NCBI GenBank assembly: GCA_903866255.1
Contig: CAIPMW010000108.1
Coordinates: 1 to 34,372 of the forward strand
Source: an uncultured Chlorobiaceae bacterium
GTDB taxonomy: Bacteria; Bacteroidota; Chlorobiia; Chlorobiales; Chlorobiaceae
Direction of reading: 5' to 3'
Length of the DNA: 34,372 bases
The notes below the pieces were generated by a model. It was given only the letters and a program-made list of their open reading frames with translations. It searched no databases and had not been told where the DNA came from. Every line of letters starts with the position of its first letter. Within the stretch, counting starts at the first letter, position 1. Positions 8,323-19,600 of this stretch are shown here, piece after piece. Both the position numbers and the translations under genes were made by a program.

Positions 8323-8396
8323 CGGCGTATAGCGCAGCCTGGTAGCGCACTTCCTTGGGGTGGAAGGGGTCGTGGGTTCGAATCCCGCTACGCCGA
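8323..8396 (+). tRNA. tRNA-Pro(GGG)
   Basis: The 74-nt sequence folds as a standard cloverleaf. The acceptor CGGCGTA pairs with TACGCCG, with discriminator A at 8396. The anticodon stem CTTCC/GGAAG surrounds the loop TTGGGGT, giving anticodon GGG at 8357-8359 with G at position 37, as in proline tRNAs. The T arm is GTGGG/CCCGC around TTCGAAT. It reads the proline codons CCC and CCU. The CCA end is not encoded. The radical SAM gene starts 45 bp downstream with no clear terminator between. Confidence 0.95.
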
Positions 8397-8441
8397 CTCT
8401 CTTACCTTCTTGTTAATCCTCACGGTTCTGTATATTTGCGC

Positions 8442-9698
8442 ATGGACACTTTGGCCAAATTACAGATTCTTTCAGGTGCAGCCCGTTATGATGCCTCCTG
8501 CGCTTCAAGTGGCAGCAAGCGTGAAGCTTCCGTCGGTGGAATCGGCAATACCTCGCAGAGCGGGATATGCCACTCCTGGTCGGATGATGGTCGTTGCATC
8601 TCACTGTTAAAAATTCTGCTCTCCAACGATTGCCGCTATGATTGCGCTTATTGTGTGAACCGTTCATCCAATGCTGTTGAGCGTGCCTCCTTTACGGCAC
8701 GGGAAGTGGTTGACCTTACTCTTGAGTTCTATCGCCGCAACTATATTGAAGGCCTGTTTTTAAGCTCGGCGGTCATGCAGAGCCCCGATGTTACCATGGA
8801 CCGGATGGTCAAGGTTGTCGAAACCTTGCGCCAGGAAGAGCAGTTTGGCGGGTATATTCATCTTAAAATTATTCCTGGCTGCAGTAGTGATCTGGTTCGA
8901 AAAGCTGGACTCTACGCCGATCGTATCAGCGTCAATATTGAGCTGCCGTCGCAGGTATCCCTGCAACGTCTTGCTCCCCAGAAACATAAAAACGCTATTC
9001 TGGAGCCTATGGCGCTTATTGGCCGGGAGATAACATCAAGCCTGGTTGAGCGCAAAGCTGACCGTCGAGCGCCCCGATTTGCTCCCGCAGGGCAGAGTAC
9101 ACAGATGATTATCGGGGCCAGCCCTGAAAATGATTTTCAGATCTTGCGTCTCTCTCAGGGACTCTATAAAAAGATGCATCTCAAACGGGTGTATTATTCA
9201 GCTTATGTGCCCGTGTGTGAGGATAATCGTCTTCCCGTGCTGGCTTCACCTCCATTGCTGCGAGAGCATCGCCTTTATCAGGCAGACTGGCTCCTGCGCT
9301 TCTACGGTTTCTCAGCAGAGGAGATTCTCTCTGATGATCTCCCTTTTCTTGACGAAACGTTTGATCCCAAGACAGCATGGGCGCTCCGTCACCCCGAGTT
9401 TTTTCCAGTCGAAATCAATCGGGCAGATTATGCTACACTGTTGCGTGTGCCTGGTATCGGTGTCACCTCTGCCAAACGTATTATCGCGGCACGTCGCTTT
9501 TCAGCGATTACACCTGAAGGGATGAAGAGAATCGGGGTGGTCATGAAACGGGCGAAATATTTTATCACCAGTTCAGGCAGGACTTTTGAAAAGTCACTCG
9601 TCGGTACGCCAGCTCTTGTCCGTCAGCAACTCCTGCTTGGCGATGCAACTGCAACGTTGCCTCCCCGGCAGCTTGTTTTTCCTGGTTTCTCCTTATGA
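8442..9698 (+). CDS. Putative DNA modification/repair radical SAM protein with HhH
   Basis: A 418-residue radical S-adenosylmethionine protein that matches the family described as putative DNA modification/repair radical SAM protein (TIGR03916 type). The N-terminal ARYDASCASSG block is typical of the family. The 4Fe-4S motif is Cys64-x3-Cys68-x2-Cys71 (CRYDCAYC), followed by a TIM-barrel-like middle. A helix-hairpin-helix, the usual non-specific DNA-binding unit, lies at about 323-350 (INRADYATLLRVPGIGVTSA). The ATG at 8442 is chosen because the upstream part of the open frame overlaps tRNA-Pro. The stop overlaps the start of the DUF4130 gene by 4 bp (ATGA), implying translational coupling and a joint function. 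The chemistry and the DNA substrate are not known to me; repair of a DNA lesion by radical chemistry, as in spore photoproduct lyase, is an analogy only. Confidence 0.9.
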   Translation: MDTLAKLQILSGAARYDASCASSGSKREASVGGIGNTSQSGICHSWSDDGRCISLLKILLSNDCRYDCAYCVNRSSNAVERASFTAREVVDLTLEFYRRNYIEGLFLSSAVMQSPDVTMDRMVKVVETLRQEEQFGGYIHLKIIPGCSSDLVRKAGLYADRISVNIELPSQVSLQRLAPQKHKNAILEPMALIGREITSSLVERKADRRAPRFAPAGQSTQMIIGASPENDFQILRLSQGLYKKMHLKRVYYSAYVPVCEDNRLPVLASPPLLREHRLYQADWLLRFYGFSAEEILSDDLPFLDETFDPKTAWALRHPEFFPVEINRADYATLLRVPGIGVTSAKRIIAARRFSAITPEGMKRIGVVMKRAKYFITSSGRTFEKSLVGTPALVRQQLLLGDATATLPPRQLVFPGFSL

Positions 9699-10441
9699 AA
9701 GCCACGAAGCGATACCTCTATGATGGAACTGCCGATGGTCTCTTCTCAGCCATTTCGTGGATTCTTGAAGAGGAGGCCGATCCGGAAAACGTTGTTCTTG
9801 CAGAGCGGGAGCAGACGCTTTTTGAGGATGGCTTGTTCATCAATACCGATAGTATTCAGGCAGAACAGCTTTTTTCAAGGCTTCGCAATCGTGCGTCCGA
9901 TGCAGCGTATACCCTTTACCTGTTCATGCTGGCCGAAAAGGAGGGGATGGAGAGCAGCTTGCTTCACTATATTTCGCTTGTTTATAGGTATGGAGATACG
10001 GTCAGTGGTTACCTGACGCATCCGGCTGTGCGGGATATTGTTTCCATTGCCAAAAAAGCCGGGCGGGAGCTGCACCGCATGAAAGGGCTCCTCCGGTTTG
10101 AAAAGCTCCAGGATGGTGCCTACCTTGCCAAAATGGAGCCCGACCACAATATTATTCAGCCCCTTGCCTCCTATTTTCGTACGCGGCTGAGGGCGCAACA
10201 CTGGTTTCTTTACGATGTCAAGCGTCGTACTGCTGCCCGATGGAGTAATGGTGTGCTGCAGTTTGGTACCATCGAACAGTTTATTACTCCTGCTCTCTCA
10301 GAGGATGAAAAAAAGGTGCAGCTCTTGTGGCAGACTTTTTTTAAAACCATCGCAATTGCCGATCGCAAAAATCCCCGACTTCAGAAATCGAATATGCCCA
10401 TGAAGTATTGGAAATATCTCACGGAGAAGCAGGGTGAGTGA
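9695..10441 (+). CDS. DUF4130 protein, partner of the radical SAM protein
   Basis: A 248-residue protein of the DUF4130 / probable DNA metabolism family (TIGR03915 type), almost always encoded next to the radical SAM protein found here. Recognisable blocks are YLYDGTADGLFSAI at the N-terminus, AGRELHRMKGLLRFEKL (about 125-140), MEPDHNIIQPLASYFRTR (about 150-167) and WFLYDVKRRTAARW. In some bacteria this domain is fused to a uracil-DNA-glycosylase-like domain; no such fusion is visible here. It is predicted to be soluble and cytoplasmic, with no signal peptide. Its start overlaps the upstream stop by 4 bp, so the two proteins are probably made in a fixed ratio and act together. Function unknown; a DNA repair or modification role is inferred from the pairing. 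Confidence 0.88.
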   Translation: MKATKRYLYDGTADGLFSAISWILEEEADPENVVLAEREQTLFEDGLFINTDSIQAEQLFSRLRNRASDAAYTLYLFMLAEKEGMESSLLHYISLVYRYGDTVSGYLTHPAVRDIVSIAKKAGRELHRMKGLLRFEKLQDGAYLAKMEPDHNIIQPLASYFRTRLRAQHWFLYDVKRRTAARWSNGVLQFGTIEQFITPALSEDEKKVQLLWQTFFKTIAIADRKNPRLQKSNMPMKYWKYLTEKQGE

Positions 10442-15952: not shown

Positions 15953-17989
15953 ATGAAACAGCTTCCTGTTTTTTTTAAACGTCATCTACCCTTGAGGTTT
16001 ATGACGTTTTTGATTGTTATGGCCGCACCTTTTTTTTCTTGTCAGGCACTCTGTGATGAAAACGACAATCTTCAGGGGTTACTTAACAATGCGGAATCGT
16101 CGACAACTATTGAGCGGTTGATTGAGACGCTTGATCTGTTGAAAAAAAATAAAATTTTGATCAATGAGGCCGAGGTTGACGAGCTTCGCCAGCTTCCATG
16201 GCTGAACAGCGCCGATGTTCAGGCAATCCTTCGCTATCGAAGGGAAAAAGGGCAAATTCACTCCATGCAGGCGCTTCAGACCATTATTGGAAAAGAGAAA
16301 ACGGCAAGTATTGCCCCTTTTATTCGTTATAAAAAAGAGAAGCTTGTCCGTATAACCTCAACACCAAAAGCTGTGGAGGTTGACGGCTCGTTGTATACCC
16401 GTTTGTTTCGGGAGACAACACCGCGAAAAGGTATTCTGAACGGCAATTATGCCGGAGAAAACTATAAACTGTATCATCGGGCAGAGTTTTCTGTTCCTCA
16501 TGTATCGGCCAGTCTGGTTCAGGAAAAAGATATCGGAGAGCCGGATATGGCCGATTTTACCTCGCTGAGTATTAATGTCTTTGACCTTGGTGTTCTGAAA
16601 AGCGCCGTTCTTGGCAACTATAAGCTTAATTTTGCGCAAGGGTTGCTTATGGGACAGGGGCGCTATTTTTCCAAAGGCACCAATCCGTCCGGGAGTGTCC
16701 GCCTCTTTTCGAAGCGCCTGCTGCCTTATGCCTCCAGTTCTGAATTTGGCTTTCTTCAGGGGGCGGCCACAACGCTGAAGCTCGATCCTTTTGAAGTGAC
16801 GGCATTTTATTCGGCAAACCATCTTGATGCAGTCATCAACGATGCTGGTGTCATTACCAGTTTTGGTACATCGGGCTACCATCGTACAGATCTTGAAATT
16901 GGCCGAAAAGATAATGTTACTGAAACCGTTTCCGGAGCGAATCTTCTCTATCATTATCAAGCGGGACTTTTCAGTGGCACAGCAGGGGGAAGCGTGCTTC
17001 GCTACAGCTATCCTTATCCGTTCGATGCACTCGAACCGGGTGCTGCCTTGAGTACGATCTCCTCTGGCACGCTCTACAGTGTTGAGACAGATCTTTCCGC
17101 TGGTCAGTTCACTCTCTTTGCCGAGACGGCATTTTCACAACATCCTGATGGAGTTTCATGGATTGCCGGGGCTGAATGTCAGGTTTCTCTTATTCTAAGC
17201 GCCGTTGTGGCCCGCAGATGCTATGGAGTGGATTATTTTTCCCCTTTTGCCGGGGCTTTTGCTGAACGGGGAGATGGAGCGTCAAATGAGGATGGATACT
17301 ATATTGGTGTCAATGCCAAGCCGAGCGATCGGCTTACCGTCGGTGGTTATTATGATTTGTTCACTTTTCCTGTTTTGGGTAGTAACTGTCACTATCCCTC
17401 TGATGGTAACGATATTCGTCTCTTCATGAACTGGAAACAGTCATCATGGCTTGCATGGAACATTCAGCTTCAGCGTAAATACAAGGAGGAGCAAAAAAAT
17501 CAGGGGAGTTCAACGGTTGCTCACTGGTCAGCTCTTCCTCTTGTTACCAATCGAGTTCAGCTCGATTGCGATGTTACTCTCCTTGATCGGCTTCGTCTTA
17601 GAACTCGGGGGGAGTTGAAACAGGTGGTCAAAAAATATCTCGCCGGAGATCAATCCTTTTATGGCAAAATGCTTTATCAACAGGTGGGGTACACTGTGGG
17701 GAACTATGGTCTGAAGGGACGTTTCTCCTTTTTTGATACCAGTGATTATGATGCAGCCATCTATGCTTATGAGGATGATCTCCCCCTGACCTCCAGTCTT
17801 GGAGTCTATGACGGGCGTGGCAAATCACTTTTTCTTCTGGCAACATGGCAGGTGATGAAGCAGATGAAACTCGGCGCACGATTTGAAACAACCTGGTATG
17901 ATGATCGTGTGGTGTACAGCAGTGGCAATGACGAGCGTGCAACCAGCGCTCCCGGATCATTTCATCTCGGATGCTTGCTGTCGTTCTGA
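15953..17989 (+). CDS. Secreted HhH protein with predicted outer-membrane beta-barrel
   Basis: A 678-residue protein with three visible parts. Residues about 13-34 form a signal peptide (LPLRFMTFLIVMAAPFFSC), so it is exported. Residues about 68-126 form a ComEA-like helix-hairpin-helix (INEAEVDELRQLPWLNSADV, then MQALQTIIG), a fold that usually binds DNA. The remaining 550 or so residues show alternating short strands, many aromatic residues at regular intervals and a terminal FHLGCLLSF ending in Phe, as in outer-membrane beta-barrels. I remember similar architectures in Bacteroidota and Chlorobiota without an assigned function. DNA uptake or envelope-bound DNA handling is an inference. The gene is last in the hisH-hisA-scpB-rluB run, 41 bp after rluB. 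The alternative is a structural barrel in which the HhH has lost DNA binding. Confidence 0.75.
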   Translation: MKQLPVFFKRHLPLRFMTFLIVMAAPFFSCQALCDENDNLQGLLNNAESSTTIERLIETLDLLKKNKILINEAEVDELRQLPWLNSADVQAILRYRREKGQIHSMQALQTIIGKEKTASIAPFIRYKKEKLVRITSTPKAVEVDGSLYTRLFRETTPRKGILNGNYAGENYKLYHRAEFSVPHVSASLVQEKDIGEPDMADFTSLSINVFDLGVLKSAVLGNYKLNFAQGLLMGQGRYFSKGTNPSGSVRLFSKRLLPYASSSEFGFLQGAATTLKLDPFEVTAFYSANHLDAVINDAGVITSFGTSGYHRTDLEIGRKDNVTETVSGANLLYHYQAGLFSGTAGGSVLRYSYPYPFDALEPGAALSTISSGTLYSVETDLSAGQFTLFAETAFSQHPDGVSWIAGAECQVSLILSAVVARRCYGVDYFSPFAGAFAERGDGASNEDGYYIGVNAKPSDRLTVGGYYDLFTFPVLGSNCHYPSDGNDIRLFMNWKQSSWLAWNIQLQRKYKEEQKNQGSSTVAHWSALPLVTNRVQLDCDVTLLDRLRLRTRGELKQVVKKYLAGDQSFYGKMLYQQVGYTVGNYGLKGRFSFFDTSDYDAAIYAYEDDLPLTSSLGVYDGRGKSLFLLATWQVMKQMKLGARFETTWYDDRVVYSSGNDERATSAPGSFHLGCLLSF

Positions 17990-18976: not shown

Positions 18977-19600
18977 TTAGAGAAAGAGGAGAGTACCGAG
19001 GAGACCGACGGTAGCGCTGATCAGGGGTATGGCAAGATTATCATCAATCTTGAAGTCGCCGATACGTACCACAAGCGCTTCAGTTATGGTTGCGGCAAGA
19101 GCCATTGTTAGGCCGATAAACACATTGAGACCGGGTACAATGGCAACTATCAGCAACGCGGAGAAAAAAAAAGCGATACTTCCCTCCAGGCTTTTTGTGC
19201 CGAAATGGTGTTTCCCAAAAATTTTTCCGACAATAGCCGCCAGTGTATCGGAAACAGCAACCATTGTGAATGCGGTGACGGCAATGATTTTTGGAAAAAA
19301 GAGTACCAAAAGCAGAGCGGCCATAATGATGTGTGTTGCGCCATTCAGATACGCTTTGTTCCCTTGCAGCTCATGCGTTCTCAGCATGGAACCAAACGAT
19401 TTATAATACCATGTGGAAACCGTACCTGAAAAATTTTTCAGAAGGTCAACCATAAAGAATCCGCAAAAAAGTGGCACAAGCAAAAGAAGGGCCAGTTCCC
19501 TGCTGATAAACCAGTAGATCACAGGAATCGACAGGGAGGAGAGGTGAATTGCTTTGCGCGCAATCTCATAGCGGAGTTCCAGTCGATCTGTCTCTTCCAT
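18977..19600 (-). CDS. Dolichol/phytol kinase-like membrane protein
   Basis: A 207-residue protein with about six hydrophobic segments, resembling the SEC59/VTE5-type dolichol or phytol kinase family that is also related to CDP-diacylglycerol synthases. The N-terminus RLELRYEIARKAIHLSSLSIP carries the conserved Arg-Lys-x-x-His near the first membrane segment. The central block AVSDTLAAIVGKIFGKHHFG TKSLEGS contains the D-x-x-A-x-x-x-G-x-x-x-G motif and the K-S-x-E-G segment that define the family. It would phosphorylate a prenol with CTP. In a chlorophyll-making organism phytol or farnesol salvage is a reasonable guess, but dolichol-like or lipid roles cannot be excluded. It is followed by the Sua5 gene after 26 bp. 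Confidence 0.8.
   Translation of the reverse strand: MEETDRLELRYEIARKAIHLSSLSIPVIYWFISRELALLLLVPLFCGFFMVDLLKNFSGTVSTWYYKSFGSMLRTHELQGNKAYLNGATHIIMAALLLVLFFPKIIAVTAFTMVAVSDTLAAIVGKIFGKHHFGTKSLEGSIAFFFSALLIVAIVPGLNVFIGLTMALAATITEALVVRIGDFKIDDNLAIPLISATVGLLGTLLFL

Follow-up and report, generated by a model that had tools for sequence, protein, structure and literature searches.

A gene for a helix-hairpin-helix (HhH) domain joined to a predicted outer-membrane barrel, found in DNA of an uncultured Chlorobiaceae bacterium, raises the question of whether such a protein takes part in DNA uptake. The stretch analysed here, called the window, comprises 34,372 nucleotides (GenBank assembly GCA_903866255.1, contig CAIPMW010000108.1). 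The open reading frame (15953–17989, forward strand, as are all features of the protein given below) has an ATG start that is kept in 16 Chlorobiaceae homologues, spans 678 codons (678 aa) and is present as a single copy in its genome, which is 99% complete. Residues 1–34 (15953–16054) resembled a type I signal peptide on inspection, with a basic n-region (KRH), a hydrophobic core and an A-x-C/A cleavage site between QALC and DEN. This feature was also found in 16 homologues. The HhH domain follows at residues 65–125 (16145–16327), where the match to Pfam HHH_3 (E 7.2e-9) exceeded the curated cutoff. The predicted barrel occupies residues 144–678 (16382–17986) and ends with a Phe codon (17984–17986). 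The initial annotation, which described an exported ComEA-like HhH joined to a barrel with a terminal Phe, was thereby confirmed: the observation of an exported HhH domain followed by a large predicted outer-membrane barrel is real.

The approximately 540 residues after the HhH domain matched no Pfam or NCBIfam family. Besides HHH_3, the protein had no Pfam match up to E 1, and hence no Plug domain, TonB-dependent barrel or PF00263; by the last of these, it does not belong to the secretins (PilQ). A sequence profile searched against the PDB did not identify the barrel, as only the HhH portion gave meaningful matches. Two AlphaFold2 runs with 16–17 Chlorobiaceae homologues predicted about 24 amphipathic strands with moderate confidence (mean pLDDT 59.7 and 62.8, pTM 0.51 and 0.56). 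With these models, Foldseek returned large outer-membrane barrels only, namely TonB-dependent receptors, ushers and AlgE (E about 1e-9 to 1e-7; TM 0.25–0.48, computed from low-confidence models). The best matches over most of the length were TonB-dependent receptors (Cir, FepA, BtuB), which likewise consist of a large barrel with an N-terminal domain. Their fold has 22 strands, and about 24 were counted in our low-confidence models; the TM was only about 0.4, and the HhH domain replaces the plug. The identity as a TonB-dependent receptor was rejected due to the lack of a Plug domain in Pfam. The region is a predicted outer-membrane barrel, the closure of which the models do not prove. If the number of strands is even, the N-terminal HhH domain would face the periplasm or lie within the pore. 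The C-terminal Phe was present in 44 of 45 Chlorobiaceae-group sequences versus 36 of 72 others. Across 117 sequences, 59 barrel positions were at least 80% conserved, including 18 Gly and 19 charged residues. The charged residues at the most conserved positions were of both signs, a pattern that is not DNA-specific.

The helices of the HhH domain were modelled confidently (pLDDT approximately 80–87). In the profile search against the PDB, the ComEA structures 8dss, 8dfk and 2duy matched this region, and the scaffold residues N71, A73, L78, P82, R96 and L108 were kept in at least 85% of the 117 homologues. NCBIfam matches to ComEA were below threshold only (TIGR01259, 25 bits versus a cutoff of 152). 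The domain had been proposed to be a DNA-binding unit, and the alignment of the 117 homologues did not support one of the canonical kind. Hairpin 1 (residues 82–86, PWLNS, 16196–16210; usually PWL-x in Chlorobiaceae) contained the G-h-G motif in 0/117 homologues. Hairpin 2 (residues 110–116, TIIGKEK, 16280–16300), which is two residues shorter in the window protein and in Chlorobiaceae than in most relatives outside the Chlorobiales, contained it in 16 and lacked it in 101. The hairpin residues were thus lost across homologues, entirely for hairpin 1 and mostly for hairpin 2, and the glycines were also lost in the clade with the gene in a comEC operon. The ComEA of the same genome (G000 contig 23), a separate small and probably membrane-anchored protein, served as an internal control and had PGVG and KGVG hairpins. 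ComEA and the barrel protein have in common an HHH_3/ComEA-type HhH pair outside the inner membrane. However, ComEA is small, is either anchored or periplasmic and has G-h-G hairpins, whereas the window protein has degenerate hairpins and otherwise consists of a barrel. A similar degenerate hairpin, of the P-G-L-S type, is known from the HhH-like domain of the T2SS minor pseudopilin GspK, to which some homologues matched weakly; GspK is part of the pseudopilus tip and, unlike the protein studied here, has no barrel. The domain thus has the fold of an HhH but lacks the classical residues for gripping DNA, and in this respect it is nearer to the GspK type. The lost hairpin residues refute canonical DNA binding, but not a role in DNA uptake.

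The immediate surroundings of the gene were ordinary. Upstream, the run hisH-hisA-scpB-pseudouridine synthase is conserved in the Chlorobiales, and so is the L-threonylcarbamoyladenylate synthase gene located downstream on the opposite strand. The initial annotation had noted that the gene lies at the end of a run with scpB; a functional link was rejected, as the neighbourhood is housekeeping synteny of the Chlorobiales only. Promoter and terminator signals in the region did not exceed the chance level. Elsewhere in the window, two overlapping genes (8355–10441) encode a putative DNA repair pair, a radical-SAM protein (TIGR03916, with an HhH match) and a TIGR03915 protein. The gene of a 207-aa protein without an NCBIfam family (18977–19600, reverse strand) is a conserved neighbour of the threonylcarbamoyladenylate synthase gene; 32 loci had this arrangement, almost all of them from Chlorobiales.

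A search of 148 Bacteroidota and Chlorobiota genomes with profile A3, built from 41 diverse members (cutoff E ≤ 1e-40), detected the HhH-barrel protein in 118 of them: in all 31 Chlorobiaceae and in 87 of the 117 others. At this cutoff it was missing from families f14, f10, f13 and f27 and from parts of f5, f8 and f18. Weaker, divergent matches adjoined porD in some members of f18 and f13. The homologues were full-length (approximately 620–770 aa), had the HhH domain at the N-terminus in every case and shared 24–88% identity phylum-wide, so the architecture is not due to chance. The same domain order, which had been suggested as a check, was found throughout both Chlorobiota and Bacteroidota, and the proteins are an old, single-copy, unnamed family of these groups. 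Among the genomes, G005 is presumably that of Chloroherpeton thalassium, and G106, which carries the gene, is taken by us to be that of Cba. tepidum TLS. In the literature library searched, no paper described this protein, and an HhH protein is not named in the main text of the paper on the C. tepidum vesicle proteome.

In 48 loci outside the Chlorobiaceae, a PorV/PorQ-like barrel of approximately 278 aa was encoded directly upstream on the same strand, and the two genes overlapped or were at most 12 bp apart in most of these loci. The match of this partner to NF033709 was under the cutoff (E 5e-21). Outside the Chlorobiaceae, the partner was present in 79 of 87 barrel-bearing genomes versus 0 of 30 barrel-less genomes (Fisher p 7e-21, a value inflated by the related genomes). 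The best match to the partner in families f2, f3 and f4 was approximately 370–404 aa long and had its own C-terminal HhH domain, so HhH domains recur on both outer-membrane proteins. Loci L134–L143 (e.g. L135:1414–2577) contained this combination of a PorV-like small barrel and a C-terminal ComEA-type HhH, which is apparently undescribed. In another locus (L083:8070–10850, reverse strand), a PorV-like domain formed part of a 926-aa protein, the gene of which immediately precedes that of the barrel; no Pfam family matched the remainder of this protein. Within the Chlorobiaceae, no partner was detected in genus g1, to which the window belongs, and five g2 genomes encoded a distant one, approximately 54–64 kb away in the three checked. 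The proposal of a single-protein device could not be upheld, given the partner in most lineages outside the Chlorobiaceae and the separate ComEA and ComEC encoded in the window's own genome.

The comEC gene (PF03772) was present in 148/148 genomes, and its presence was therefore uninformative as co-occurrence evidence. In family f5, every barrel-bearing genome (75/75, from 9 genera) had comEC as the next gene downstream of the barrel gene and in the same orientation, in the order PorV-like, HhH-barrel, comEC. The median distance from the barrel end to the Competence domain was 721 bp, and the gene gaps in four loci were +3, +2, −1 and −10 bp. Such adjacency was absent from the 67 genomes checked outside f5, and the two genes are not linked in the window's genome. 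Decay within f5 was shared: in genome G246, the partner was gone and both barrel and comEC were broken, while the flanks were intact. G180 lacked the barrel together with the N-terminus and start of comEC, and G191 lacked the partner and had a frameshifted comEC. The joint decay can be explained in part by adjacency, with one deletion spanning both genes. In genus g62 (f5; L165, L166, L168), neither partner nor barrel separated a merR-like gene from comEC, which was intact. ComEC was kept without barrel or partner in one f5 genus (about 35 genomes sampled), in f14 and in other groups, which indicates that ComEC does not need the barrel. No replacement barrel was evident in the reading frames neighbouring comEC in families without the HhH-barrel protein. 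An association with comEC or type IV pilus genes had also been suggested; the former was found in one family, and the latter was not, as the window's genome had no match to PF00263.

This secretin domain was absent from 72 of the 148 genomes, including all five f5 genomes sampled. The only secretin of G106 was encoded within a Tad pilus operon that also encodes RcpC/CpaB and a T2SSE ATPase. Natural transformation is a standard method in Cba. tepidum (PMC3842273), and Tad pili could contribute to it. In Riemerella anatipestifer, transformation without pili uses two proteins that are both essential, RA0C_RS02645, with an HhH at residues 236–301, and RA0C_RS04915, a proposed outer-membrane barrel, and a Riemerella screen concluded that a unique transformation machinery must exist there (PMC8459023). 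These are two separate proteins, in contrast to the single protein studied here, and they are likened to it by description, not by sequence; f14, which is Flavobacteriaceae-like in appearance, lacked the HhH-barrel in our sample.

The comEC operon, the shared decay, the co-occurrence with the partner, the HhH domain on the PorV-like protein, and the ComEC and canonical ComEA of the window's genome together with its lack of a secretin led us to hypothesize, tentatively and with slightly less than even confidence, that the HhH-barrel protein is the outer-membrane part of a DNA-uptake route without a type IV pilus secretin. The same is suggested by G106, taken to be the genome of transformable Cba. 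tepidum, in which the barrel is present and the only secretin is Tad-associated. Beyond the architecture and the gene linkage, we infer the steps of this route. Extracellular DNA would be bound and then threaded through the barrel, and the PorV-like barrel might assist its passage in most lineages. The HhH domain at the periplasmic mouth might act as an adapter or plug, to which ComEA or the partner could dock, for example, and not as a G-h-G DNA grip. ComEA would next capture the DNA, and ComEC would transfer one strand into the cytoplasm. A broader claim sees in the HhH-barrel protein, accompanied by the PorV-like barrel in most lineages, the missing outer-membrane DNA importer of those Bacteroidota and Chlorobiota that transform with no type IV pilus secretin, as a new kind of non-secretin channel feeding ComEA and ComEC; this is possible but more doubtful. 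The uptake hypothesis is weakened by the loss of the hairpin glycines, by the restriction of comEC adjacency to one family and by the occurrence of ComEC without the barrel elsewhere. It is also weakened by the partner being undetected in the window's own genus and by porD, which adjoins the barrel in more families than comEC does.

The product of porD is a T9SS extended-translocon protein (PMC10994853). The gene adjoined the barrel–partner pair in 14 families (59 genomes), with opposite orientation in all but one genome (58 of 59). Together with the PorV/PorQ-like nature of the partner, this would fit a T9SS-derived accessory module for outer-membrane export or surface attachment, in which the HhH domain is a protein–protein adapter. 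We consider this explanation, the main rival of the uptake hypothesis, unlikely. The PorV/PorQ barrels of the T9SS resemble the partner but have no sequence match to the HhH-barrel protein itself, and the divergent porD neighbour may be old synteny only. Moreover, PorD was detected in 0/31 Chlorobiaceae, all of which have the barrel, and SprA in 0/61 Chlorobiaceae versus 12/12 non-Chlorobiaceae control genomes. Conversely, f14 lacks the barrel although PorD is present, as is SprA in both members tested for it. Membership of the family in the T9SS was rejected based on this distribution, although it may derive from the T9SS or be connected with it as an accessory.

The retention of the barrel in all Chlorobiaceae, which lack the T9SS, is also consistent with a generic transporter or porin of the outer membrane, the substrate of which would be a polysaccharide, lipid or nutrient. 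Its degenerate HhH would then serve as a periplasmic plug or in docking, and the comEC operon would be a lineage-specific chance. The HhH without G-h-G would agree with such a function, as would the nutrient receptors and AlgE among the best Foldseek matches, the conserved residues, among them Gly and both positively and negatively charged ones, and the lack of a partner in the window's genus and of a secretin in its genome. Overlapping or abutting genes in 75 genomes of 9 genera are, however, improbable for unrelated functions, and the HhH is specifically of the ComEA type by profile. We regard a generic transporter as equally unlikely. The single-protein DNA receptor of the initial annotation, in which a canonically DNA-binding periplasmic HhH would be joined to a pore within the same protein, agrees with the ComEA-type scaffold, the export, the predicted barrel and the linkage to comEC in f5, but is very unlikely given the hairpins without G-h-G, the separate canonical ComEA and the partner barrel in most lineages.

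A phylum-wide barrel that shares an operon with comEC in 75 genomes is a testable candidate for the way in which DNA passes the outer membrane of transformable bacteria that have no PilQ secretin. Naturally transformable Cba. tepidum, to which we attribute G106, carries the gene and is a ready test organism. If the protein were instead a T9SS-era or nutrient barrel, it would still be present in every green sulfur bacterium sampled, as a conserved but unnamed protein of the outer membrane.
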